A DNA stretch of 64,000 bases from Fibrobacter sp. (GTDB taxonomy: Bacteria; Fibrobacterota; Fibrobacteria; Fibrobacterales; Fibrobacteraceae), in contig JAKSIB010000008.1 in assembly GCA_024399065.1 (NCBI GenBank), positions 1-64,000 of the forward strand. Reading direction: 5' to 3'. How positions within the stretch are numbered: position 1 is the stretch's first letter; each line of letters begins with the position of its first letter. Both the position numbers and the translations under genes were made by a program. Below are positions 17,512 to 60,619 of this stretch, one piece after another. Under the pieces are notes generated by a model. That model had not been told where the DNA came from and ran no database searches. It saw nothing but the letters and a program-made list of their open reading frames with translations.

Positions 17512-20292
17512 ATGAAGCCTTTCGCATTTATTTGCTTTCTGGTTCTAGGCGTCATCACCGCCTGTTCTATGGACGAAGGCAACGGCATTGATGCAGAAAC
17601 CAACGTCCCCATTGCAGAAATTGATTCCCTGCATGAAGATTTCATTCTGGTCCACTCCAGCGGTAAAACCAGTTTTGTCGGCAGCGATGATTCTTCCGCC
17701 AAAGTAAACGAACGTCCGCAAATGGGCGTCACCTTCTCCTATGATTTTTCTCTTGAAAGGCACGAAACAACTTGCAAAGAATTCAAAAAGTTGATGCAAG
17801 AGGAATACAAGGACTTCGACTCGACAATCAGCTGCAAGAGCAGTTCCGCACCCATCACCAGAGTAACCTACTACGACGCCATACTGTTCGCCAATGCACG
17901 AAGTAAAACAGAAGGTTTCGATACCGTCTACACCTACACTAGGCTAAACCTGAACAAGGACAAGCATTGCATCAATCTTGAAGGACTCAATTTTCATCCC
18001 GAGAAAAAAGGCTATAGACTCCCCACTGAAGCGGAATGGATTTTTGCTGCCTCCCAAGGTTGGAACACAAACAATTCTTGGCACCAAGACAACGCCTCTG
18101 GACTTTCTCACGACATATGTCAAAAGGGTCAAAACGACGCAGGCTTTTGCGACTTGGAAGGCAATGTCATGGAATGGGTAAACGATTGGTTGGGTAACTT
18201 TAAGGACACAACCATCACAAACTTTGTCGGAGCCCCAGGCGGAAACGAAGTTGGCGAAAGAGTCGTAAAAGGCGGATACTTCAATAGTGACCCCATATCA
18301 ATAAATCCGCATCGACGCGGCGACACGTACGTCGTCACAGGCCCCGACTACACAAACTACATTGGTTTCCGCCTAGCCTTCGGCCCCATAGAAAACGGAA
18401 CCTGGTTAAGCAGTAACGGCCACATCACAAGCGACAAACTCACTTCTACGGCAAGTTCCGCACAAATAAAGAAACTAACCGGAACCTTTGACGCAAAGCT
18501 AGCCTTTAGAAATAATATTTCCGGAAATCTCGTCTATCTGGATTACACTTCCGGAAGCGCTTCGTTCACTGAATTCATGGACACTATTCCCGTCTACCAT
18601 CCTGAAATTTCACCCGACGGAAGATACGTCGCATTTTGCACAAGGCCCGAAGGCACCCCAGGAAATTCAGAGATTTACGTCAAAAAGTTGCAGAAATACG
18701 ACACGCCCCTCATGAAACTAGACGTTGATTCCGCGGCAATTCCACGCTGGAGAATTCTTGACGACGGGAGCACTGTCATTACCTACGTAAATAGTGCAAA
18801 CACAAATAATGGCGAAGACTTTTTAACAACTTCTTCCACCTGGCAAGTATCTTTCAGCAAGAACAAGTTCGGTGAACCACAAAAAATATTAGATGGCGCA
18901 TACCACGGAGGTATTAGCGACGACAATAAAATTGCAGTCACGGGAGCTCGACTTCTAAGAGCAAAGATTGCCACTGAAAACGACATTTTCCAATCCTCAG
19001 CATCAGATACTGTTTGGTACAACAACGAACAAGCCTGCAATGTGAGTTTGGCAAAAGATGGAAGCAAGCGTGTTCTGTTCCTAGATTTCGCTGGAAAGAC
19101 AGGGAAAAAGTATGTCGGCAACGCATACCATGTTCACGAAAGGCTATTCGTCACAGACAGCACAGGAGCACTTATCCAAAGCGTAAAAGCTCCCCAAGGA
19201 TTCACTTTTGACCATACCGAATGGGTTCAAGACAATTTGGTAATAGCCACACTAAGTAGTATCAGTGACAATCATGAAAAGATTGTTTTGGTAAACCTTT
19301 CGGACAGCAGCACGACAGAGCTGGTCGAAGGTACGGATTTATGGCATCCCTCTTTATGGATCAATCCTCATTCCTTTACTGAAGACAGCACCTTGAATCT
19401 GGATAGTGCAGGAGTCTACATGTTCGCAAACGACAGTTGGGCCTCCACCATCATGCGATACAAAATGGAACTGCTATGGGATTATTATGACACGCTTAAC
19501 GTGGCTATTTTGGGGTCGTCACGTCCGTTCTACGCGCTGAGTCCTAACCGACTCAGCAAAAAATTCTTCGCCGTCAATTTCGCCCACACCCCAAACTCCA
19601 TCTACGCCATACAGGATTTTGCCGAAAAATACATTCTCACCCACGGCCACAATTTAAAATACCTGGTTGTATCCCTCGATATAGATTTTTGGTATCACAC
19701 CAACGACGACAACAGCAACAACTTCTTTGTTTCCGCAGCTCCAAATTATCCAGGTTACGTGTACGACGCCAACCACGATTATTGGAAAGATGGCGTTCCC
19801 GAAGGACTTGCCAGAGCAACAAAAAAGAACTTAAGTATCGACAACGACTTTATCTACTTGAATGACCGCGGAAGACTTTTGGAAACCATTTGCGAAGGAT
19901 GGGGCGGTGATGCAGACGTTAAGGTCGACAGCACCATCTTTGATAATGATCCCAGCCTTTTGGATAATTCAAAAGCAGCACTGAAGGATATTATCCAAAA
20001 GGCCAAGAACAGAAACATTTATGTCATTGGAATGGTCTTCCCGCAAAACCCCGCCTACAAGGAAACAGGCGCTTTTGGACGCTACGGTCTTCGCCGCTCT
20101 ACGGCAAAGAAACTCATCGAAGAATTGAAGAGTTGGAGTTCAGACTATCCCAATTTCATCCTAATGGACGAAAACAAAATGGGAAATCACGACTATTCAG
20201 ACGATATGGCTTCCGACCAGGACCATCTCTGCACAGACGGCAGTCAAAAGATTACAGCACGCCTTGATTCCCTGCTTAAAACTCTGGATTAA
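17512..20292 (+). CDS. TIGR02171-type lipoprotein: FGE-fold, beta-propeller and SGNH-like modules
   Basis: 926 residues. Lipobox ITAC puts the lipidated Cys at 18. Residues ~50-295 form a formylglycine-generating-enzyme/sulfatase-modifying fold (RLPTEAEWIFAA, CDLEGNVMEWVNDW, RVVKGGYF, GFRLAFG) without the paired catalytic Cys of true FGE. Residues ~330-620 contain PD40/TolB-like repeats (HPEISPDGRYVAFCT). The last ~270 residues resemble an SGNH hydrolase: GSSR near 667 and DQDHL at 902-906. Length, lipobox and species fit the Fibrobacter paralogous family TIGR02171, whose function is unknown. A close paralogue lies at 22216-24975. The SGNH reading, and hence an acyl-ester activity, is inference. 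Confidence 0.8.
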   Translation: MKPFAFICFLVLGVITACSMDEGNGIDAETNVPIAEIDSLHEDFILVHSSGKTSFVGSDDSSAKVNERPQMGVTFSYDFSLERHETTCKEFKKLMQEEYKDFDSTISCKSSSAPITRVTYYDAILFANARSKTEGFDTVYTYTRLNLNKDKHCINLEGLNFHPEKKGYRLPTEAEWIFAASQGWNTNNSWHQDNASGLSHDICQKGQNDAGFCDLEGNVMEWVNDWLGNFKDTTITNFVGAPGGNEVGERVVKGGYFNSDPISINPHRRGDTYVVTGPDYTNYIGFRLAFGPIENGTWLSSNGHITSDKLTSTASSAQIKKLTGTFDAKLAFRNNISGNLVYLDYTSGSASFTEFMDTIPVYHPEISPDGRYVAFCTRPEGTPGNSEIYVKKLQKYDTPLMKLDVDSAAIPRWRILDDGSTVITYVNSANTNNGEDFLTTSSTWQVSFSKNKFGEPQKILDGAYHGGISDDNKIAVTGARLLRAKIATENDIFQSSASDTVWYNNEQACNVSLAKDGSKRVLFLDFAGKTGKKYVGNAYHVHERLFVTDSTGALIQSVKAPQGFTFDHTEWVQDNLVIATLSSISDNHEKIVLVNLSDSSTTELVEGTDLWHPSLWINPHSFTEDSTLNLDSAGVYMFANDSWASTIMRYKMELLWDYYDTLNVAILGSSRPFYALSPNRLSKKFFAVNFAHTPNSIYAIQDFAEKYILTHGHNLKYLVVSLDIDFWYHTNDDNSNNFFVSAAPNYPGYVYDANHDYWKDGVPEGLARATKKNLSIDNDFIYLNDRGRLLETICEGWGGDADVKVDSTIFDNDPSLLDNSKAALKDIIQKAKNRNIYVIGMVFPQNPAYKETGAFGRYGLRRSTAKKLIEELKSWSSDYPNFILMDENKMGNHDYSDDMASDQDHLCTDGSQKITARLDSLLKTLD

Positions 20293-20293
20293 A

Positions 20294-20704
20294 CTAATTC
20301 GAGGAAAGGGGATCGTACTTGTTTAAAAGCTTGCAAATCAGTGCATAGACGGATCCACCAATAAGACCGCCCAAGGTATCGGCAACAAGGTCAATGGCGT
20401 CACAAGAACGTCCTTCAACAAAACGCTGATGGAATTCATCTGTACAGCCATAAACCAAAGTCAAGATTACGACAACCAAAATTCGAAGCCAAATTTTCTT
20501 TGACCATTCCACACGAGTCCACCACAAGGAAAAGCAACCAGCCAAAGTGGCGTATTCACAAGTGTGAGCCAGCTTGTCCCAAACATGCGGGAGCCCCTGC
20601 AACTCATCTGCCGTCATTGAAGAAATTTTAAAAATAACGGCCATGCAAAGAACTGCGGGAATCGTGCGAAAGAACGGATACTTGGCAAATATGGATTCGA
20701 ACAT
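20294..20704 (-). CDS. VanZ-like family membrane protein
   Basis: 136 residues from the ATG at 20704. A longer reading from 20785 is possible but its first 27 codons lie in a degenerate repeat array, so it is rejected. VanZ-like features are DKLAHTCEYATLAGCF and YGCTDEFHQRFVEGRSCDAIDLVADTLGGLIGG, with about four hydrophobic segments. VanZ itself gives low-level teicoplanin resistance by an unknown mechanism; most homologues have no known role. It is convergent with the lipoprotein gene, separated by one base. Confidence 0.85.
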   Translation of the reverse strand: MFESIFAKYPFFRTIPAVLCMAVIFKISSMTADELQGLPHVWDKLAHTCEYATLAGCFSLWWTRVEWSKKIWLRILVVVILTLVYGCTDEFHQRFVEGRSCDAIDLVADTLGGLIGGSVYALICKLLNKYDPLSSN

Positions 20705-20706
20705 TT

Positions 20707-20769
20707 TAGCGAATAGTGAAGAGTGAACAGTGAATTTCGTCTTTTTGGTAGAAATTAGAAATTTTAGAC
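20707..20769. repeat. Degenerate 7-bp tandem repeat array
   Basis: Nine successive 7-bp units in one phase. The first four fit NAG(T/C)GAA (for example TAGTGAA, GAGTGAA), two in the middle are diverged, and later ones include TAGAAAT twice. It sits upstream of the VanZ-like gene. The rest of 20770-20999 shows no gene. Confidence 0.6.
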
Positions 20770-22215: not shown

Positions 22216-24975
22216 ATGAAGAAAACCATTATAAAAAGAAGCCTACCTCTTCTTACAGGACTTTTTCTTGCTGCGTGCTCCAGCGATCCATCCTCCTCCG
22301 AAATCGTTTTTAATGAAAATGACCCCTTAAAATCTATCGTGACGATAGAGGCTACCGGGGCTTCCCTCTTGATGGGAACAAGCGATTCAAACTCCAGGGC
22401 TGATGAACGCCCACAAATGGAGGTTTCCTTTACATACGACTACGGAATGTCTCAGCACGAAGTTACGTGCAACGAATTCCTCAGCCTTATGAAAAAGGAA
22501 TTCGGCACACAGGTTTCCGCAATCAAATGCGAGAAAGACGACCTTCCCATTACAAACGTCACATTCTACGACGCTGTTTTGTTTGCAAACGCCCGAAGCA
22601 AGGCCGAGAAATTCGACACCGCCTATACCTATACAAAGACTACGTTTAACGAACACGGAAATTGCATCGGTATGGAAGGATTCAACTTCCATCCTGAAAG
22701 GGAATCCTACAGACTTCCCACTGAAGCGGAATGGATGTTCGCCGCAGGCAAAAAATGGACCGACGAAAATTCCTGGAACGGCAGCAACTCAGAATTAAGT
22801 CCACATAAAGTATGCTCCAAGAAAAAGAACGAATTCGGGCTTTGCGACATGTCCGGAAACGTGAGAGAATGGGTCAATGACTGGAAAGTTTCTTTCAAGG
22901 ACACCCTACTCACCAACTTTGCCGGCGCACCCGACGGAGGCGTCATCGGCGAAAGAGTCATAAAGGGAGGCTACTTCTATCAAGATCTGGACGTCATCAG
23001 TGTTAATCACAGAAGCGATGTCTATACCGTCACATCAACAACACAGAAGGACTATCTCGGTTTCAGACTAGCCCACGGTTCCATCCCCACCCCTTCGTGG
23101 CTTGATAAGAACGGCAACGGCAGCAGCATTAGAATCGTCTCCTTGGTCAATTCAGCAGGTATTCAAAACATTGCTGGAACATCACGAGTCAAGCTCGCCT
23201 TCAGAAACGATATTTCAAACAACCTTGCTTTCATCGACTACAGAAATGGAGCATCCTACATTCAAGAGATTCAGGACACCATGCCCGTCTACCATCCGGA
23301 AATATCTCCCGATGGTAAACATGTAGCCTTCTGCACAGTTTTCGAAACTATAGATGCTACTTCCAAAATCTACGTCAGAGATCTGGACGGTTACGGCAGT
23401 AACCTGGTGATGCTGGATGTTGAATCCGCTACAATCCCCCGTTGGCGAATTCTTGACAACGGCGATACCGCCATCGTATACGTTTCCTCCGCAGCATCTC
23501 TTAGCGAAAGCAACTTCAAAAAAGCCTCCACATGGCAAGTCGTTTTCAAGGATGGCAAATTCGGAACTCCTCAAAAACTGTTTGACGGAAATTACCACGG
23601 CGGCATCAGCGATGACAGCAAACTTGCTGTTTCCGGTGCTCCCAGGCTTCGTGCAAGAATTGCAACAGACAAGGACATCACACAAGATTCCGCCATCGAT
23701 ACAACATGGTACAACGATGAGCAAGCCTGTAACGCGAGCCTTTCAAAAGACAAGAGCAAACGTACTCTTTTCCTAGACTTTGCCGGAAAAACAGGAAAGG
23801 AATTCGTCGGGAAAGCCTATAGGGTTCACGAAAGAATTTTCATCGCAGACAGCACCGGAAAACTCATCAAGAGCATTCCATCTCCACAGAAATACGCCTT
23901 TGACCATACAGAATGGGCTTCCGAAAATCTCATCGTCGCAACTCTTACAAATTCAAGCAACGCCCACAGTAAAATCGCTGTAGTAAACGTTCAGGATTCC
24001 ACCATAACAGAACTTGTGGAAGGCGACGAACTCTGGCATCCTTCCCTTTGGATCGACAACCACGCCACCTTGGAAACGGAACTGGATTTGGACAGTGCCG
24101 GCCAATATTTCTATTCCGGCGGAAGCGAACTCGCCATGATTCTCCGTTACAAGATGGAAATTCTTTGGGGAAACCTTGATTCCAAACTTGCCATTGTTGG
24201 ATCTTCACGATCCCAGAACGGCATCATTCCACTTCAAATGGATTCTTCACTAAAGGCAATCAACCTTTCCCACATTCCCAATTCCCTTTTCAATTCCAGA
24301 TACATTATCGAGAATTACCTGTTAAATCATTTGAAGGAATTGAAATACCTGGTCCTTTCTCTAGACATTGATATGTGGTGGAAAACCAAAACCAATAACT
24401 ACGATAATTTCTTTGAAGCCGATTACAAAAAGTACGCAGGATTTATCTACGATGAAAACCACGACTTCTGGAAAGACGGTTATCCGGAAGGCTTACTGGA
24501 ATTGACCCACGATGCCCCCGGCTTTGATTACTACGAAACAAGATTTATGCCCACACTGGGTTATTATGGAGAACCTTCCGGAGGCTGGGAAGAAGAACCA
24601 TCCGTCGATTACGACAGCACTTGGACAGACAAGGGATCCCAATACCAGGAAAACTTTGACGAACTGGAAACCATTCTCAGTTTGGCAAAGAAGAAAGGAA
24701 TCTCCGTTATCGGAATTATCTTCCCCCAAAGTCCTGGCTACAAGCAAACAGGAGCCTACGCAAGATACGGTTTCCGCAGAAGCGAAGCCAAGGAACGAAT
24801 TCAGGAAATTGCAGATTTATCCAAGGACTACCCCAACTTCATCTTGATGGATGAATACAAAATGGGAGACCACGACTACACTGACGAAATGGCAGCAAAC
24901 AAGGACCATCTAAGCGAAAAGGGAGCCGAACAAATGACTCATCGTCTCGACTCCCTCGTGCAAGCCCTTGAATAA
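22216..24975 (+). CDS. TIGR02171-type lipoprotein, second paralogue
   Basis: 919 residues; lipobox LAAC with the lipidated Cys at 21. It parallels the 17512-20292 protein module by module: FGE-like fold with RLPTEAEWMFAAG, CDMSGNVREWVNDW, RVIKGGYF and GFRLAHG; PD40-like repeats (HPEISPDGKHVAFCT); and an SGNH-like end with VGSSRSQNG near 660 and NKDHLSEKGA at 895-904. The position three before the His is Asn895 here but Asp902 in the paralogue, so only the D-H pair is shared. The two copies bracket the VanZ-like gene and rlmI, which suggests an old duplication followed by rearrangement. Cell-surface function unknown. Confidence 0.8.
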   Translation: MKKTIIKRSLPLLTGLFLAACSSDPSSSEIVFNENDPLKSIVTIEATGASLLMGTSDSNSRADERPQMEVSFTYDYGMSQHEVTCNEFLSLMKKEFGTQVSAIKCEKDDLPITNVTFYDAVLFANARSKAEKFDTAYTYTKTTFNEHGNCIGMEGFNFHPERESYRLPTEAEWMFAAGKKWTDENSWNGSNSELSPHKVCSKKKNEFGLCDMSGNVREWVNDWKVSFKDTLLTNFAGAPDGGVIGERVIKGGYFYQDLDVISVNHRSDVYTVTSTTQKDYLGFRLAHGSIPTPSWLDKNGNGSSIRIVSLVNSAGIQNIAGTSRVKLAFRNDISNNLAFIDYRNGASYIQEIQDTMPVYHPEISPDGKHVAFCTVFETIDATSKIYVRDLDGYGSNLVMLDVESATIPRWRILDNGDTAIVYVSSAASLSESNFKKASTWQVVFKDGKFGTPQKLFDGNYHGGISDDSKLAVSGAPRLRARIATDKDITQDSAIDTTWYNDEQACNASLSKDKSKRTLFLDFAGKTGKEFVGKAYRVHERIFIADSTGKLIKSIPSPQKYAFDHTEWASENLIVATLTNSSNAHSKIAVVNVQDSTITELVEGDELWHPSLWIDNHATLETELDLDSAGQYFYSGGSELAMILRYKMEILWGNLDSKLAIVGSSRSQNGIIPLQMDSSLKAINLSHIPNSLFNSRYIIENYLLNHLKELKYLVLSLDIDMWWKTKTNNYDNFFEADYKKYAGFIYDENHDFWKDGYPEGLLELTHDAPGFDYYETRFMPTLGYYGEPSGGWEEEPSVDYDSTWTDKGSQYQENFDELETILSLAKKKGISVIGIIFPQSPGYKQTGAYARYGFRRSEAKERIQEIADLSKDYPNFILMDEYKMGDHDYTDEMAANKDHLSEKGAEQMTHRLDSLVQALE

Positions 24976-37752: not shown

Positions 37753-39444
37753 TTGATTTACTATTTGCTGGCTGCGCTTATTATATCGTTCATCAACATC
37801 GGCCTGTTGATGTTGATCAACTCCAAGAGAACGACTTCTTTTTATACAGCAATGTTCTACGTAATGACCATCCAGTTGGCAGGTCACTACTTCCTGGCTC
37901 GATCCACCACCGTTGAAGAAGCCTTGTTGGCAAACAAGATTGCCTATGTCGGTGCCGTCTACGTCCCGCTGCTGTTCTTCCTTGGCGAATTGACCATTTG
38001 CAATATCAAGGTATCCAAGACCCTTCGAATCGTACTGTTCCTCATCAGTTCCGTGATTTACGGATTTGCCGCAACCGCCGGTTATAGCGATATTTTCTAC
38101 AAGAGCATCACCTTGGTGCAGCGCAACGGCATGACAGACTTCATTCCCGTTTTCGGCCCCACCCATGTGCTGTTCAACATCATGTTGTTCATATACCTGA
38201 TTTCCGGCATCGTTGTTCTCGTATACTCCCTCCTCAAGAAAAAGAATTTCTCCTACCGCAACCTTTGGGGCTTGGCCGCCATCGGTTTCATCAGCATCGG
38301 ATCCTTCTTCATCTTTAGAGAGTTGGGCTGCGACATGCTGGCCATGCCTGCGATTTATCTTGCTGTCGAAGCAATCATGCTTTGCATCATCCACCGCATC
38401 GGTCGTTACGATATCGAAGGCACCATTCGCGACACACTGGAATACCAGAACGAAAACGCCTACCTGTCCTTGGCCACCGACAAGACCTACCTTGGCTGCA
38501 ACGACATCGCCTATCATTTCTTCCCCATTTTGAAGACTTTCCGAGTAGATTCAAAGATTCGTGAAGCCGACGAATTTGGAAGCATCCTTTCCAGGTTCAT
38601 TGAAAAGTTCAATCCCCAGGATCTTTGCCAGGTGGACTACTTCCAGTATGGCAACAAGCATTACAAGAGCGTCCTGAGAAACCTGCACCATGGTTCCAAG
38701 ACCTGCGGCTACCTGTTCCGCATCGAAGACGACACCAAGATGCAACGCTACATCAAGCTTTTGGACAAGTACAACACCGACTTGGCTACCGACGTTCAGA
38801 ACAAGGATGAACACATCCAGGTTATCCAGGAACAGATGATTATCGGCATGGCCAACATGGTGGAAAACCGCGACAGCAACACCGGCGGACATATCAAGCG
38901 TACAAGCCAGGTCGTCAAGATTCTCGTCAACGAAATGAAGAAGGACGAAGCCTACCGCAACATGAACAAGTTCTTCAACGCAGTCATCAAGGTCGCCCCC
39001 ATGCACGACCTTGGAAAGATTGCCGTGGACGATGTCATCTTGCGTAAGCCAGGCAAATACTCTGCAGAAGAATACAACAATATGAAGACCCACTCCGAAA
39101 AGGGCGCCTACATCGTTGAAAATCTTTTGAAGGATGTCGAATCCCAGGAACTGGTGAACATCGCCAGAAACGTGACCCACTACCATCACGAACGTTACGA
39201 TGGTTCCGGTTATCCCAATGGTTTGAAGGGCACGAGTATTCCTCTGGAAGCTCGCATCATGGCTATTGCCGACGTGTACGACGCATTGGTCAGCCGCCGC
39301 TGCTATAAGGAAAAGATGTCCTTCGCAGAAGCCTACGACATCATCGTAAGTTCCATGGGTACACATTTCGATCCGGCATTGAAGAAGTATTTCATCAACT
39401 GCCACAAGGAACTGGAAGCCTTCTACGAAAGTTGCGGTGACTAA
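37753..39444 (+). CDS. Membrane HD-GYP phosphodiesterase
   Basis: 563 residues with a TTG start, preceded by AGAGGAG at the right spacing. The first ~225 residues hold seven to eight transmembrane helices resembling the 7TM sensor module of histidine kinases (YYLLAALIISFINIGLLMLI, YVMTIQLAGHYFLA). A PAS-like or linker region spans ~230-360. The HD-GYP domain has HD at 418-419 (APMHDLGKI) and HHE at 478-480 with GSGYP (484-488). HD-GYP proteins usually cleave cyclic di-GMP to GMP, so this is a membrane sensor output that lowers c-di-GMP. No GGDEF is fused. Solitary gene. Confidence 0.92.
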   Translation: MIYYLLAALIISFINIGLLMLINSKRTTSFYTAMFYVMTIQLAGHYFLARSTTVEEALLANKIAYVGAVYVPLLFFLGELTICNIKVSKTLRIVLFLISSVIYGFAATAGYSDIFYKSITLVQRNGMTDFIPVFGPTHVLFNIMLFIYLISGIVVLVYSLLKKKNFSYRNLWGLAAIGFISIGSFFIFRELGCDMLAMPAIYLAVEAIMLCIIHRIGRYDIEGTIRDTLEYQNENAYLSLATDKTYLGCNDIAYHFFPILKTFRVDSKIREADEFGSILSRFIEKFNPQDLCQVDYFQYGNKHYKSVLRNLHHGSKTCGYLFRIEDDTKMQRYIKLLDKYNTDLATDVQNKDEHIQVIQEQMIIGMANMVENRDSNTGGHIKRTSQVVKILVNEMKKDEAYRNMNKFFNAVIKVAPMHDLGKIAVDDVILRKPGKYSAEEYNNMKTHSEKGAYIVENLLKDVESQELVNIARNVTHYHHERYDGSGYPNGLKGTSIPLEARIMAIADVYDALVSRRCYKEKMSFAEAYDIIVSSMGTHFDPALKKYFINCHKELEAFYESCGD

Positions 39445-39466
39445 AAACTCGGCTATGCCGAGTTTT
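39444..39466 (+). terminator. Terminator of the HD-GYP gene
   Basis: AAAACTCGGC/GCCGAGTTTT perfect stem with TAT loop, starting at the stop codon. Confidence 0.88.
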
Positions 39467-39508
39467 AGTTATGAAATACAAATCACAAAGTATGAGATAA
39501 TATAAGAG

Positions 39509-39535
39509 AAAAGCTCGGCGAGGCCGAGCTTTTTC
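39509..39535. terminator. Bidirectional terminator downstream of purT
   Basis: AAAAGCTCGGC/GCCGAGCTTTT with a 3-nt loop; its arms closely resemble those of the hairpin at 39444-39466. Confidence 0.8.
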
Positions 39536-39537
39536 TA

Positions 39538-39572
39538 ATTACGAGGTACGAATTACGAATTATGAGAATTCG
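39538..39572. repeat. Degenerate 7-bp tandem repeat array, 3' side of purT
   Basis: Five successive 7-bp units; the first four follow (A/G)(T/G)TA(C/T)GA, such as ATTACGA and GGTACGA. The same 18-bp stretch occurs at 39546-39563 and 40829-40846 on the other side of purT. Confidence 0.65.
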
Positions 39573-39588
39573 CGGGTCCGGACCATTT

Positions 39589-40773
39589 TTACAGCGTGAT
39601 TTTCACCTTTTCGCGCATAGCCATGACGGTGTCCTTTGCTTCTTCCACAGTGTTGCGGCGAGCGAGGAGAACGCCCATACGGCGGTGACCCTTCAGTTCC
39701 GGCTTACCGAAGAGGCGAAGGCCAGTATCCGGTTCTGCGAGAACTTCTTCGAGGCCGCTGAACTTCACCTGAGTGGAGTTGCCGTCGCAAACGATTGCCT
39801 TGGAAGCACTGGGGCCGTGGAAAGCAATGTTGGGAATGGGCAGGCCGAGAATGGCTCGTGCGTGGAGAGCAAATTCGGAAAGGTCCTGGGAGATCAAGGT
39901 TACCATACCGGTGTCATGGGGTCTCGGGCTCACTTCGCTGAACAGGACTTCATCCTTGCAGACGAAGAGTTCTACACCAAAGATACCGCGGCCACCGAGA
40001 GCGTCGGTCACCTTCTTGGCAATGACCTTAGCCTGTTCCAGAAGTTCCGGCTTCATGGGCTGGGGTTGCCAGGATTCCTGATAGTCACCACCAACCTGAT
40101 GGTGGCCGATGGGTTCCAGGAATGCAGTGCCTGCCACGTGGCGGACGGTGAGCAAAGTAATTTCGTAATCGAAGGGAACGAAGCCTTCAATAATCACACG
40201 GCTTGCCTTACCGGTACGGCCTTCATTCTGGGAAATGTTCCAGGAATTCTCGATATCAGCTTCAGTCTTGATGACGCTCTGGCCATGACCAGAAGAGCTC
40301 ATCACCGGCTTGATGACGCAAGGAATACCGATTTCCTTGACGGCAGCCTTGAAGTCTTCGAAGTTGTCAGCAAACTTGTAGGGGCTGGTCTTGATGCCAA
40401 GTTCTTCGGCAGCGAGACGGCGGATACCTTCGCGGTTCATAGTCAGCTTGGTTGCCTTGGCGGTAGGAATGACGGTGTAGCCTTCGGATTCCATCTGAAC
40501 CAAAGTATCGGTAGCGATAGCTTCCACTTCCGGAACGATGTAGTCAGGCTTTTCCAGTTCAATGACGCGACGCAGTTCTGCACCATCCAGCATGTTGATT
40601 ACATGAGAGCGGTGAGCCACCTGCATGCCCGGGGCATTTGCATAACGGTCAACGGCAATCACTTCAACGCCGAGACGCATCATTTCGATGATGACTTCCT
40701 TACCCAGTTCACCTGCACCGCAGAAGAGAACCTTAGTTGCACTAGAGCTAAGCGGGGTACCGATTTCAGCCAT
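39589..40773 (-). CDS. purT: Formate-dependent phosphoribosylglycinamide formyltransferase
   Basis: 394 residues, the usual length. PurT uses ATP and formate to formylate GAR in purine synthesis without folate. ATP-grasp features: [57 protein letters not shown] (ATP-binding), [27 protein letters not shown] and [12 protein letters not shown]...[22 protein letters not shown] precedes the ATG. No other purine gene is near; both flanks carry heptamer-repeat arrays. Confidence 0.97.
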
Positions 40774-40827
40774 AAAAAACTCCTGTTAAAGGCCCTATAA
40801 AGATAGATAATAATGATGGATGAGCCA

Positions 40828-40876
40828 AGTACGAATTACGAATTATATTCTCATAATTCATACTTCATAATTCATA
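40828..40876. repeat. Degenerate 7-bp tandem repeat array with internal inversion, 5' side of purT
   Basis: Seven units in one phase. The first two read (A/G)xTACGA (AGTACGA, ATTACGA); the last four read xTTCATA or TCTCATA, roughly the reverse complement of the first type. The array ends two bases before the stop of the minus-strand gene at 40878. Confidence 0.65.
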
Positions 40877-40877
40877 A

Positions 40878-42503
40878 TTAGAATCTGTAGTCCACGGGGT
40901 TTAATGTGAATTTCACACCGGCACGGATCCAACCGTCGGTGCCATTTTCGCCTTTGACATGGTCCAAATTATCGTAAATGCGGAATCCACCACCCAGATA
41001 GTATTCAAACCAGCTCTTTAATTTGTCCTTATAAAGGACGTCAAAGACATACTGGCTTTCTTCCACACCGGAAGTGGAGCCCTTAGTATTCAGAGCTTGG
41101 TTATACTCGGTATAAAGTTCCTTGTCACCCTGCTGTAGCCAGGCAAAGGAAAAATCGACGGAACGTTTTCCGTATTTCCAATTGACATCGAGCCACAAAT
41201 CCAGTGCATCAGGGCCTCGACGGTAGCCTACAGGATAGTCCACAAAATAGGCATCAGCGTAGTCGGGATCATTTTGTTCACGATAATTGCTGCGGTACAT
41301 CCTGCGTCCAGTGTACTTGAGCAGGGGCAGCTTGCTATTGTTGGATGCGGGATCTGTAAGAACCACATCAAGACGGGTAGTAAACGTGCCGTATTTTTCT
41401 GTCGGAATTTCCTGGGTATAGCCAACCATATAGTTGATAATGGAGCGGCTCGTTCCCTTATCATCGTCCTCGCCTACCGGACTGTTCAAGTCTTCCATGT
41501 TCATCTGACCGTAGAATTTTGCACCCTTGATGGGCTTAAAACCTATGTCGAAGGAAGTTGCGGCCGAAGTATAGCCCGAGCCGTAATTATCGTGCCAGTA
41601 AATGAACGGATTAAAGGATCGGAATTCCAGTGGCTTGCCACCGACCATGCTGGTTTCAACCACATAAGCCCAGAATTTGGATGTTTCAAGACCAAAACGA
41701 TGGTACACCAAATTCTTTACATTTTCACCATAAGTTCTGTTACGCTGATTATCAACCTGTTGACTCGGTTCCGTACACTTCTGGGCGTAAGCTTCTGTTC
41801 CCTTGACCGGACAACCTGTTGCATGATCAATAACATCACCATAGAGCCAGGCGTTAAGAGAACTCAGCAAGAAATCGTAACGGAAGATACCCGGATTGAA
41901 TTTCCAATGGATACCGTCATGGTACGGGATTCCACCAATAAGGATGTCGTTGGGGGAAGTTTTCACATCAGCCTCAAATCGGCCCACCTGCACATAACCT
42001 ACCGGATTGTTCCAACGGGCATAGGCATTGATCGGGACATTGATATCCAATTCGCTAGGTTTGTAAGTCAAGTTCGTTTTGGTAGAACTATGATACCAAG
42101 CTTCAATATCTTTTCGAAGAGGAGCTTCCAGCAAGAAATGGAAATTCTTGTAACCGGCACGGAAACTCAACGTGAAGAAAGGATTGATGCGGTCTTCGTA
42201 ATTGCGGCCTGTTTCCAAGGGAATCTGGAGGCCGCGCCAATTGGCAGTGGGACCTCCGTAATGTTCTGCAGTATCTGCAGCAAAGTAGGAGGCCGTAGGG
42301 CCGCCATTAAAGCCAAATTCAAAATCCGTTCCAACCTGAACGTAGCCCTTGAGCTTGGAAGAATCACTCCAAAGAGAGCTGCGCCACTGTTCCACGGAAA
42401 CAGAGCTATCCACAGAAACTGCAGACGGAACAACCGTAGAAGCCTGAGCTGCGGCAACAAGCCCCATAAAGGCAAATGAGATTTTGAAAAAGGATCGCAT
42501 CAT
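40878..42503 (-). CDS. Outer-membrane beta-barrel protein, unknown function
   Basis: 541 residues from the ATG at 42503 (an adjacent ATG at 42500 is equally possible; a much longer frame that reads through the upstream terminator is rejected). Signal peptide ~1-22 (FAFMGLVAAAQAS). The mature part is a succession of amphipathic aromatic strands (FTLSFRAGYKNFHFLLEAPL, YARWNNPVGYVQVGRFEADV, FRYDFLLSSLNAWLYGD, FEYYLGGGFRIYDNL) and ends in YRF, a BAM-type terminal signature. Resembles large porins or polysaccharide-export barrels; no specific family could be fixed. Downstream of ftsZ but cut off by a terminator. Confidence 0.72.
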   Translation of the reverse strand: MMRSFFKISFAFMGLVAAAQASTVVPSAVSVDSSVSVEQWRSSLWSDSSKLKGYVQVGTDFEFGFNGGPTASYFAADTAEHYGGPTANWRGLQIPLETGRNYEDRINPFFTLSFRAGYKNFHFLLEAPLRKDIEAWYHSSTKTNLTYKPSELDINVPINAYARWNNPVGYVQVGRFEADVKTSPNDILIGGIPYHDGIHWKFNPGIFRYDFLLSSLNAWLYGDVIDHATGCPVKGTEAYAQKCTEPSQQVDNQRNRTYGENVKNLVYHRFGLETSKFWAYVVETSMVGGKPLEFRSFNPFIYWHDNYGSGYTSAATSFDIGFKPIKGAKFYGQMNMEDLNSPVGEDDDKGTSRSIINYMVGYTQEIPTEKYGTFTTRLDVVLTDPASNNSKLPLLKYTGRRMYRSNYREQNDPDYADAYFVDYPVGYRRGPDALDLWLDVNWKYGKRSVDFSFAWLQQGDKELYTEYNQALNTKGSTSGVEESQYVFDVLYKDKLKSWFEYYLGGGFRIYDNLDHVKGENGTDGWIRAGVKFTLNPVDYRF

Positions 42504-42530: not shown

Positions 42531-42568
42531 CAAAAAGGATTGCCCAGGCAGGGAGACCCAGGCAATCC
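42531..42568 (-). terminator. Terminator at the end of the dcw operon
   Basis: GGATTGCC/GGCAATCC 8-bp stem with a further GG/CC step; on the minus strand it is followed by TTTTTG and an A/T-rich tail. It closes the mraZ-ftsZ operon 130 bp after ftsZ. Confidence 0.8.
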
Positions 42569-42582
42569 CTTTGTGTTGTGTT

Positions 42583-42660
42583 GAATGCGCACTCGCGCAT
42601 TCGTGTGTGTGTGTGTTTCGTTGAAGACGCACTTGGCATAGCCTGCTGACAAATCAGCAG
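42583..42660. repeat. Two perfect hairpins between ftsZ and its terminator
   Basis: GAATGCGC-N4-GCGCATTC at 42583-42602 and CTGCTGA-N4-TCAGCAG at 42643-42660, with an alternating GT tract (42602-42616) between them. No T runs. The remainder of 42569-42696 shows no gene. Confidence 0.55.
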
Positions 42661-59900: not shown

Positions 59901-60619
59901 CCGGCAATTCCTCCTTCAAGCGCAAGGGCATCATCTTGCAGATGATTCTTGCCCTCAAGCAAATTTGCAACCACCCCGCAACCTATATAAAAGGCACGAG
60001 GCGCGAGGTTGCAGGTTCGAGGAACGAGGCGCAAGACTCCAGCGAAAATTCAGCAACTGAACCCGAAGCAACTCCGGTCCTGGAATCCGGCAAGTTGCAA
60101 ATGCTTATTGACTTGCTAAGAACTATTCAGGAGCAGGGTGAAAAAACCATCATCTTTACGCAGTTCACCGAAATGGGCAATTTGCTGAAAAGTTCCATCA
60201 AGGAGGAACTGGGCATTGCGGCCAACTTCTATCACGGTGGCTGCACCCAGAGCCAGCGAAACTCCATGGTACAGGACTTCCAGGAAAATCCCGAGTCCAA
60301 GGTACTGATTCTTTCCTTGAAAGCAGCGGGCACCGGCCTCAACCTTACCGCAGCAAGCCAGGTCATCCATTACGATCTCTGGTGGAACCCCGCCATCGAA
60401 GCCCAGGCCACCGACCGCGCCTTCCGTATTGGCCAGAAGAAGAACGTTCAGGTTCACCGTTTCATCACCAAGGGAACCTTCGAAGAAAAGATTAACGCGT
60501 TGCTGGAATCCAAGAGGGCCATTGCGGAACTGACGGTGAACGCCGGTGAAACCTGGATCGCTGATCTTGACGACTCCGCCCTCAGCGAAGTCTTCGGCCT
60601 GGACAACAGCGTGGTTTAA
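56939..60619 (+). CDS. SNF2-family DEAD/DEAH-box helicase with SWIM-like finger
   Basis: 1226 residues from the ATG at 56939. The N-terminus has a SWIM-like motif C124-x-C126-x5-C132-x-Y134, where Tyr replaces the usual His. A long bacterial-SNF2 N-terminal region follows to ~690. The motor has Walker A ADDMGLGKTLQV (~740), DEAQ at 834-837, MSGTPVENRLLEFW, FTQFTEMGNL, AAGTGLNLTAA and DRAFRIGQKKNVQVHRFIT. Such proteins (HepA/RapA-like class) translocate on double-stranded DNA and may recycle RNA polymerase or act in repair. A low-complexity insert (~1018-1045) encoded by a heptamer array interrupts the second helicase half. Divergent from the dcw operon. Confidence 0.88.
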   Translation: MDFGYSGNTWWSKKWLETLLQNAQSETITTALRYFSRGQLSSLEIADNRIVSHVRGPNGGSHDNYIVFPKIPKEKTDVLVSLLKQQPTELRALSNDTLNQSLELLLSKCGITLFDSADAVKMGCGCKDSQPCKYVITTFLGIAKEMVDNPFVLFKIHGMDIEFLKDLKIEQTEVMEAPYESALVQGVRGVPTEKDDLIADQENSNGRVPEINFDEWHDYSRILPAMLQNFPDFCPAGNFRKSFADEMEFCRKYYSEFETFYDFAEQFRLYNNKTFMMEGESLQVVHSDGWKWHFIQAKDGQVISSDLSVETAMGALCALSRGNFFMHHVTVRFLHRALMAAFHLVKTGAIYPQVFWIGKDVAQMRWLPAEMLPDVLAVVAEFEKFAPASIALLDRDEDRQLLLSPAEHILSLFIGQLLRFARKFKPQTQKSKHENLLVFFFNCISGKLANNAHAIPGKIQQWFSVYSSLDFRAQILFSCSEIGNEIALDVFVLDDTGTGSVRTPLAALFESNDSRLLSILSILNGIAEAFKPMEKYLERKASSSIIMHGAELLDFLQNSLKKLEVLGIQAELPKSLMNVGRPKTQMRVQGTMSYGAFKAQDLLDFDWEVAIGDEEISAEEFLKLAKNAEGLLKYKSQYIHITDEDLKNLQERVEKKQSGEPDKEITQAKLVQACLTGQCESVGVTLTDQMKSQIEAWRGESEIELPTGLNATLRPYQLRGYSWMYKNLDMGFGCILADDMGLGKTLQVITYLLKIKQEGKLDDNKALVVLPAGLLCNWQMEIRKFAPELTFMPYHGGSRDLQKFNADVLLTTYATFRKDVDKLKERQWQVVIIDEAQNIKNADSDQSKLLRSMQAPMKIAMSGTPVENRLLEFWTIMDFCNRGILPSASEFHERFEIPIQKNGSQPVAEQFRKITAPFMLRRLKTDKSIISDLPDKIIQDEYAELTKSQAILYKTTLDKFLADLELEEMMREQAAATSGVSDGGASGAGNSSFKRKGIILQMILALKQICNHPATYIKGTRREVAGSRNEAQDSSENSATEPEATPVLESGKLQMLIDLLRTIQEQGEKTIIFTQFTEMGNLLKSSIKEELGIAANFYHGGCTQSQRNSMVQDFQENPESKVLILSLKAAGTGLNLTAASQVIHYDLWWNPAIEAQATDRAFRIGQKKNVQVHRFITKGTFEEKINALLESKRAIAELTVNAGETWIADLDDSALSEVFGLDNSVV
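59994..60035 (+). repeat. In-frame 7-bp repeat array inside the SNF2 gene
   Basis: Six consecutive 7-bp units, mostly G-x-x-CGAG (GCACGAG, GCGCGAG, GTTCGAG), total 42 bp, i.e. exactly 14 codons. The encoded Arg/Glu/Ala/Gly/Asn stretch lies between the conserved ICNHPATY and LESGKLQML of the helicase. Confidence 0.65.

Follow-up and report, generated by a model that had tools for sequence, protein, structure and literature searches.

Heptad-armed hairpins in the intergenic DNA of a Fibrobacter genome and in other bacterial groups

Introduction

The STRR of cyanobacteria are degenerate intergenic heptamer arrays and are described as direct repeats. To our knowledge, hairpin pairing and polarity have not been stated as a rule for them. 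REP/BIME, REPIN, and MITEs such as ERIC are short dispersed intergenic palindromes, and effects at transcript ends have been proposed for them.

The GGGAATC and GGGGA(C/T)T repeats of Xanthomonas and Nostoc have a period of 7, are intergenic, and mostly consist of four units (Rehm et al. 2015, PMC4692102). The GGGAATC-type repeats of Xanthomonas occur as inverted (convergent) pairs (Rehm et al. 2015, PMC4692102). The G-rich strand of the Xanthomonas and Nostoc repeats lies downstream on the coding strand or upstream on the noncoding strand; the repeats are under-represented between divergent genes, and their length and sequence vary widely between relatives (PMC4692102). STRR heptamers of Calothrix are mentioned in the same paper. 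The TAACTGA direct repeats of Beggiatoaceae are heptamers beside start codons and are also found in Cyanobacteria and Bacteroidetes (MacGregor 2015, PMC4679880).

In this study, a tandem heptamer array was analyzed in a 64,000-nt stretch of DNA from Fibrobacter sp. (contig JAKSIB010000008.1, positions 1–64,000), referred to as the window. The array would belong to a class of palindromic elements dispersed through intergenic DNA, each arm of which is a tandem run of degenerate 7-nt units, with roughly four units per arm in the best-defined family. The name heptad-armed hairpin is used for these elements, and the focal array is probably the one surviving arm of such a hairpin.

The heptad hairpins share the period of 7, the intergenic position, the polarity, the preference for four units, the scarcity between divergent genes, and the wide variation between relatives with the repeats of Rehm et al., and the inverted pairing with those of Xanthomonas. 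Xanthomonas and Nostoc have one G-rich, quadruplex-forming word per organism, whereas many words without G-tracts are used here and are replaced in place; the word list (AATTAYG, AGTGRTT, AGGYNCG, etc.) contains no GGG tract. A common core in one family and the occurrence in many phyla are further differences. The TAACTGA repeats have a single fixed word, related heptamers are seldom repeated, and inverted pairs are not the rule, in contrast to the heptad hairpins; TAACTGA is not among the listed array words of the source genome. The likeness to STRR lies in the degenerate intergenic heptamer arrays. Unlike REP/BIME, REPIN, and MITEs, the hairpins have arms of tandem heptads of changing word, and no link to RAYT was found.

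Results and Discussion

The focal array and its gene neighborhood

The features around the focal array were as follows.

20297..20704, minus strand: VanZ-like gene, downstream of the focal array (Pfam PF04892, E 7e-14)
20707..20734, plus strand: focal array of four heptads, TAGCGAA TAGTGAA GAGTGAA CAGTGAA (lag-7 identity, shuffles, and TRF)
20749..20763, plus strand: two copies of TAGAAAT, in phase with the focal array and of a different word (separate duplication)

The identity of the focal array was 0.86 at lag 7, and 0.13–0.38 at the remaining lags with the exception of the lag-14 harmonic. The top lag-7 score of this intergenic region was matched by none of 2000 dinucleotide shuffles. TRF reported the array as 3.4 copies of GAACAGT. 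Genes were called by a simple model of our own, which missed the VanZ-like gene; this gene was then added by hand. The array lies upstream of the VanZ-like gene (minus strand), with 2 bp between its end and the start codon; this distance, like all start distances given here, is approximate. Orthologues of the VanZ-like gene were present in 76 of 80 congeneric genomes.

The initial annotation described nine units in one strict phase, drifting from NAG(T/C)GAA to TAGAAAT. Units 1–4 were upheld by the shuffles, while units 5 and 6 (TTTCGTC and TTTTTGG) were no repeat units. Units 7 and 8, the TAGAAAT pair, are in phase and represent a separate small duplication, because the relative G093 keeps a single TAGAAAT in the conserved flank beside an array with a different word. 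The array thus consists of approximately four plus two units. No arm complementary to the focal array was found in its intergenic region, which leaves the array as a purine-rich left arm standing alone.

Two large open reading frames, at 17512–20292 (926 aa) and 22216–24975 (919 aa), flank the VanZ/methyltransferase pair and are related, with a clear similarity when compared by eye.

Other heptad arrays in the window

Three further stretches with period 7 had been reported in the window, and all three were confirmed.

39540..39565, plus strand: heptad array TACGAGG/TACGAAT (AATTACG word) between convergent genes (0/2000 shuffles)
39592..40773, minus strand: PurT-like gene between two array-bearing intergenic regions (Pfam ATP-grasp and PurT_C)
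40827..40845, plus strand: left arm of a heptad hairpin, AAGTACG AATTACG AATTA, pairing with 40851..40879
40851..40879, plus strand: right arm of the heptad hairpin, TCATAAT TCATACT TCATAAT TCATAAT T (lag-7 identity 0.91)
59994..60035, plus strand: heptad array with AGG words, AGGCGCG, AGGTTGC, AGGTTCG, and AGGAACG (lag-7 identity 0.66, 2/2000 shuffles)

The stretch 40827–40879 (0/2000 shuffles) really consists of two arrays in opposite orientation, and its arms are 80–92% complementary. The core between these arms is lost here and kept in the relatives G090 and G096. A terminator scan of 39400–40900 gave one terminator, which was distinct from the heptad hairpin.

Upstream of the purT-like gene (L197–L226), several pyrimidine-rich arrays end immediately ahead of a TAnnTTTG-like element, as in TATCTTTG. 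This element resembles the −7 promoter element of Bacteroidetes. The Rfam ftsZ-DE RNA motif (RF02985, 87 bits) was found at 42533–42602 on the minus strand, upstream of the gene ending near 40878.

Excess of period 7 in the source genome

The genome sample comprised 464 kb (400 kb of stretches plus the window) of the 3.82-Mb draft and included 255 intergenic regions with a total length of 70 kb. The initial annotation proposed an autocorrelation test at lag 7. The bulk autocorrelation had no clear peak at this lag (z = 1.4), so that the proposed test would have come out negative in its simplest form, and the signal was confined to local arrays; therefore, local arrays were counted. By this count the excess was evident, with 33 period-7 arrays in the 70 kb of intergenic DNA and 1.0 expected from shuffles. 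Only 2 were found in 394 kb of coding DNA. Non-codon periods other than 7 gave 0–4 intergenic arrays each, and the harmonic at 14 gave 22. As tandem direct 7-nt repeats in mostly intergenic positions, the arrays are of the STRR/LSSR type.

A 21-nt pattern of three GAATTAC units with at most 3 mismatches had 60 matches in the source genome, and the reversed control had none. No heptad arrays were found in three stretches of E. coli K-12 (24.7 kb of noncoding DNA). In the congeneric genome G083, the reversed control pattern had 12 matches to CATTAAG-like heptamers, seemingly another word.

Arms, polarity, and core

Intergenic arrays at the left edge were mostly AATTACG, AGGTTCG, AGTGGTT, or AGACGAG, and those at the right edge were mostly the reverse complement. 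The left arm was purine-rich and the right arm pyrimidine-rich regardless of gene orientation, convergent regions included. Both arms were often present with a short interior, which may contain an ordinary terminator. The heptad arms have no T run, and the G+C-rich stem followed by a T run that defines intrinsic terminators was not seen in the heptad hairpins. RNA folding of four two-arm regions gave z-scores of −3.6 to −5.0. Rho loading by the pyrimidine arms was also considered and was dropped, since the first arm downstream of the stop codon is the purine-rich one.

The arrays closely adjoin start or stop codons. Several of them abut start codons, the focal array among them, as for the TAACTGA repeats, where a translation or RNA-binding signal before the start codon has been proposed (MacGregor 2015, PMC4679880). 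Such a signal is very unlikely for the heptad arrays: stop codons were adjoined as often, convergent regions had the same polarity, and the word differed between close relatives at the same site.

One sub-family has a common interior of about GAGATTTATAATCGCGGC-NNN-GCCGCCTAGCTAAGTCTC. In a search of 12 genomes, a model limited to the 39-nt core gave 6–18 copies in about 8–9 of the genomes and 0–2 in the remainder. Among 30 fetched core matches, 29 were bounded by heptad arms with a median length of 27 nt, or about four units. With their core and arms, these elements are short and dispersed and have terminal inverted repeats, consistent with MITEs. Unit-level covariation between the arms was not significant in the core-bearing family (83/1000). 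A strict double-arm pattern had one match within the phylum and was too strict for the degenerate arms.

Variation between relatives and slot turnover

The initial annotation expected copy-number variation between strains. Comparison of the source genome with G093 bore this out, as array lengths differed by exactly 7 and 14 bp. The NAGTGAA units upstream of the VanZ-like gene in the source genome correspond to AGGCTCC/AGGTACG units in G093. The flanks of this region are conserved, and its length is nearly equal in G093 and the source genome (297 vs. 295 bp). G087 and G089 carry further different words upstream of the VanZ-like gene. Words thus differ across sites and between relatives at the same site, in agreement with the earlier view that the period and not the word is conserved. 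The footprint of a binding protein had also been suggested. A word-specific protein is disfavored because the word is replaced in place; the polarity is also present in convergent regions.

One other orthologous slot was investigated in 29 congeneric genomes. A heptad hairpin of about 80–160 bp was present in 25 genomes, and the slot was nearly empty (0–6 bp) in the other 4. The filled slots carried at least 7 words, as labeled by eye. All 34 arrays found in them over lags 4–13 had a lag of 7, and the mean fold z was −4.0. On the flanking-gene tree, which is possibly blurred by recombination, the slot word changed at least 16 times, compared with a minimum of 7 and a value of 19.9 for shuffled labels. 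Sister species sometimes had different slot words. Slot sequences were 98–100% identical across species whose flanking genes were 79–92% identical, which suggests that intergenic alleles were exchanged between species.

The 130-bp AGTGGTT-hairpin region at G000:C1:197916-198045 (in L040; G000 is the source genome) is identical in G000, G093, and G094, and the genes flanking it in G094 are only about 87% identical. At C8:120959-121087 (in L046), the AGG/CCT arms are kept on both sides relative to G093 and the interior is wholly different; the flanking genes are about 97% identical.

A purely mutational origin would involve slippage in 7-nt steps and template switching at quasi-palindromes in unconstrained intergenic DNA, with no element and no function. 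The exact 7- and 14-bp length changes fit this origin, as do graded words inside one array, such as ACTTCAT to ACCTCGA (C1 224834). Heptamers have been described as the most abundant class of longer repeats, with polymerase slippage as the idea behind them (Mrazek 2007, as cited in PMC4679880 and PMC4692102). The origin is nevertheless rather doubtful here, since it predicts neither the fixed polarity nor the common core, and neither an arm length near four units nor identical hairpins in one slot across species. Pure slippage, as first suggested for the arrays, likewise fails to account for the inverted pairing, the polarity, and the common core.

Dispersed copies with a common core and arms, and slots that are filled in some species and empty in others, are also expected of currently mobile MITE/REP elements with a transposase acting in trans. 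Near-identical copies of the one family that was searched came solely from the same slot, and other near-full-length matches were 72–87% identical; therefore, recent transposition is not demonstrated. No clear target-site duplication was found at filled and empty slots, where the junctions are too diverged to read, and the Y1 transposase is missing from several array-carrying genomes. Current mobility is thus unlikely. Profile searches with PF01797 and PF00078 found no mobilizing enzyme. Mobilization by RAYT was rejected, since PF01797 was absent from the array carriers G093, G099, G085, and G098; G000 has one copy of PF01797, with its subtype unassigned. Telomerase-like reverse transcriptases of the DRT10 kind produce short tandem-repeat DNA in bacteria, with a 9-nt motif in the system studied (PMC12632851), and might template the units. 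This source of the heptads is highly improbable, as RVT_1 (PF00078) was unmatched in G000 and in 6 of 9 relatives tested, and such an enzyme would not account for inverted pairs at the edges of genes.

Occurrence in other phyla and origin of the hairpins

A two-arm pattern matched at least 116 stretches across contigs labeled with many bacterial groups. The matches listed included Bacteroidota, Chloroflexi, cyanobacteria, Acidobacteria, Ignavibacteria, Peregrinibacteria/Peribacteria, Geobacter, Endomicrobium, Hydrogenedentes, and Fibrobacteria. Among the non-query arrays of the fetched cross-phylum loci, 115 intergenic arrays had period 7, compared with 27 for period 8, 13 for period 9, and 2–7 for periods 4–6 and 10–13. 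The words of the two arms of one region matched at 5.27 of 7 positions vs. 3.87 when arms were swapped (0/500). The initial annotation knew of no such arrays in Fibrobacter. A search of the heptamer-repeat literature, with most subscription journals outside it, agreed with this and returned no paper on Fibrobacter heptamers, on a word-independent rule, or on slot turnover. The arrays are, however, no oddity of Fibrobacter, as the same layout occurs in many phyla.

Pattern pairs were scarce between divergent genes (4/64 vs. 40/195, p = 0.007). This scarcity is consistent with hairpins selected at transcript boundaries, where they would end or stabilize transcripts in both directions or insulate neighboring genes, the structure mattering and the word being free. 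The matching of the arms in word, the same polarity for both strands, and the survival of the layout through many word changes in one slot point the same way. However, ordinary terminators are frequent in the regions that carry the hairpins, the T run typical of intrinsic terminators is missing from the arms, the slot is empty in 4 species, and the scarcity could also reflect promoter constraint. Selection of this kind is possible, and we consider it only tentatively.

Period 7, inverted pairing, polarity, word matching between arms, the core of one sub-family, 7-bp changes, and slot turnover are observed. They may well be explained by old, dispersed REP/MITE-like hairpin elements that are resized in 7-bp steps and swapped between species as intergenic alleles, an explanation held with moderate confidence. 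The families would have spread long ago as REP/MITE-like hairpins, and the sequence comparisons suggest that this dispersal was old and not recent. Since then, the arms may have changed length through slippage by one unit. Recombination at the flanking genes would exchange whole intergenic alleles, including word and core, between species, and the word would switch while the period and the hairpin persist. The hairpin itself is probably either tolerated or of slight structural use at the boundaries of transcripts. The exchange tracts count against this explanation: they are short and end near gene edges, which is unusual for ordinary recombination. The lone focal arm, the non-significant covariation of arms in the core-bearing family, the restriction of near-identical copies to one slot, and the failure to find a target-site duplication or a mobilizing enzyme also count against it.

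An alternative is that one process produces or maintains the hairpins in many phyla, acting on the hairpin geometry independently of the word, with the 7-nt step, the purine-first arm, and the word matching between arms as its signature, and that the resulting hairpins are transferred between species one slot at a time. This is improbable; if true, it would define a word-free class of intergenic hairpins across many phyla. Heptamer repeats and, in Xanthomonas, their inverted pairs were known before, and the word-free generalization appears to be new. It suggests that the heptamer repeats of Calothrix, Xanthomonas, Nostoc, and Beggiatoa, so far noted singly, may be one phenomenon with word-independent rules: a 7-nt step, inverted arms, purine-first polarity, a position at gene edges, and fast word turnover. 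The question of why the step is seven would then be testable over thousands of genomes. In addition, the hairpin slots provide naturally occurring trans-species intergenic alleles with which the exchange of noncoding DNA between bacteria can be studied.

The cross-phylum loci were selected by a pattern of fixed polarity, and polarity outside the phylum was therefore assessed with the other arrays of the fetched loci, which have other words, and with a small comparison of viral contigs. Purine-left polarity was found in 53 of 63 non-query arrays (p = 3e-8). The order of the arms was forward in 7 viral contigs and reverse in 1. The sole viral contig found reversed, IMGVR_UViG_3300044524_000063 (L294, L295), has GTAATTC arms outside and GAATTAC arms downstream.
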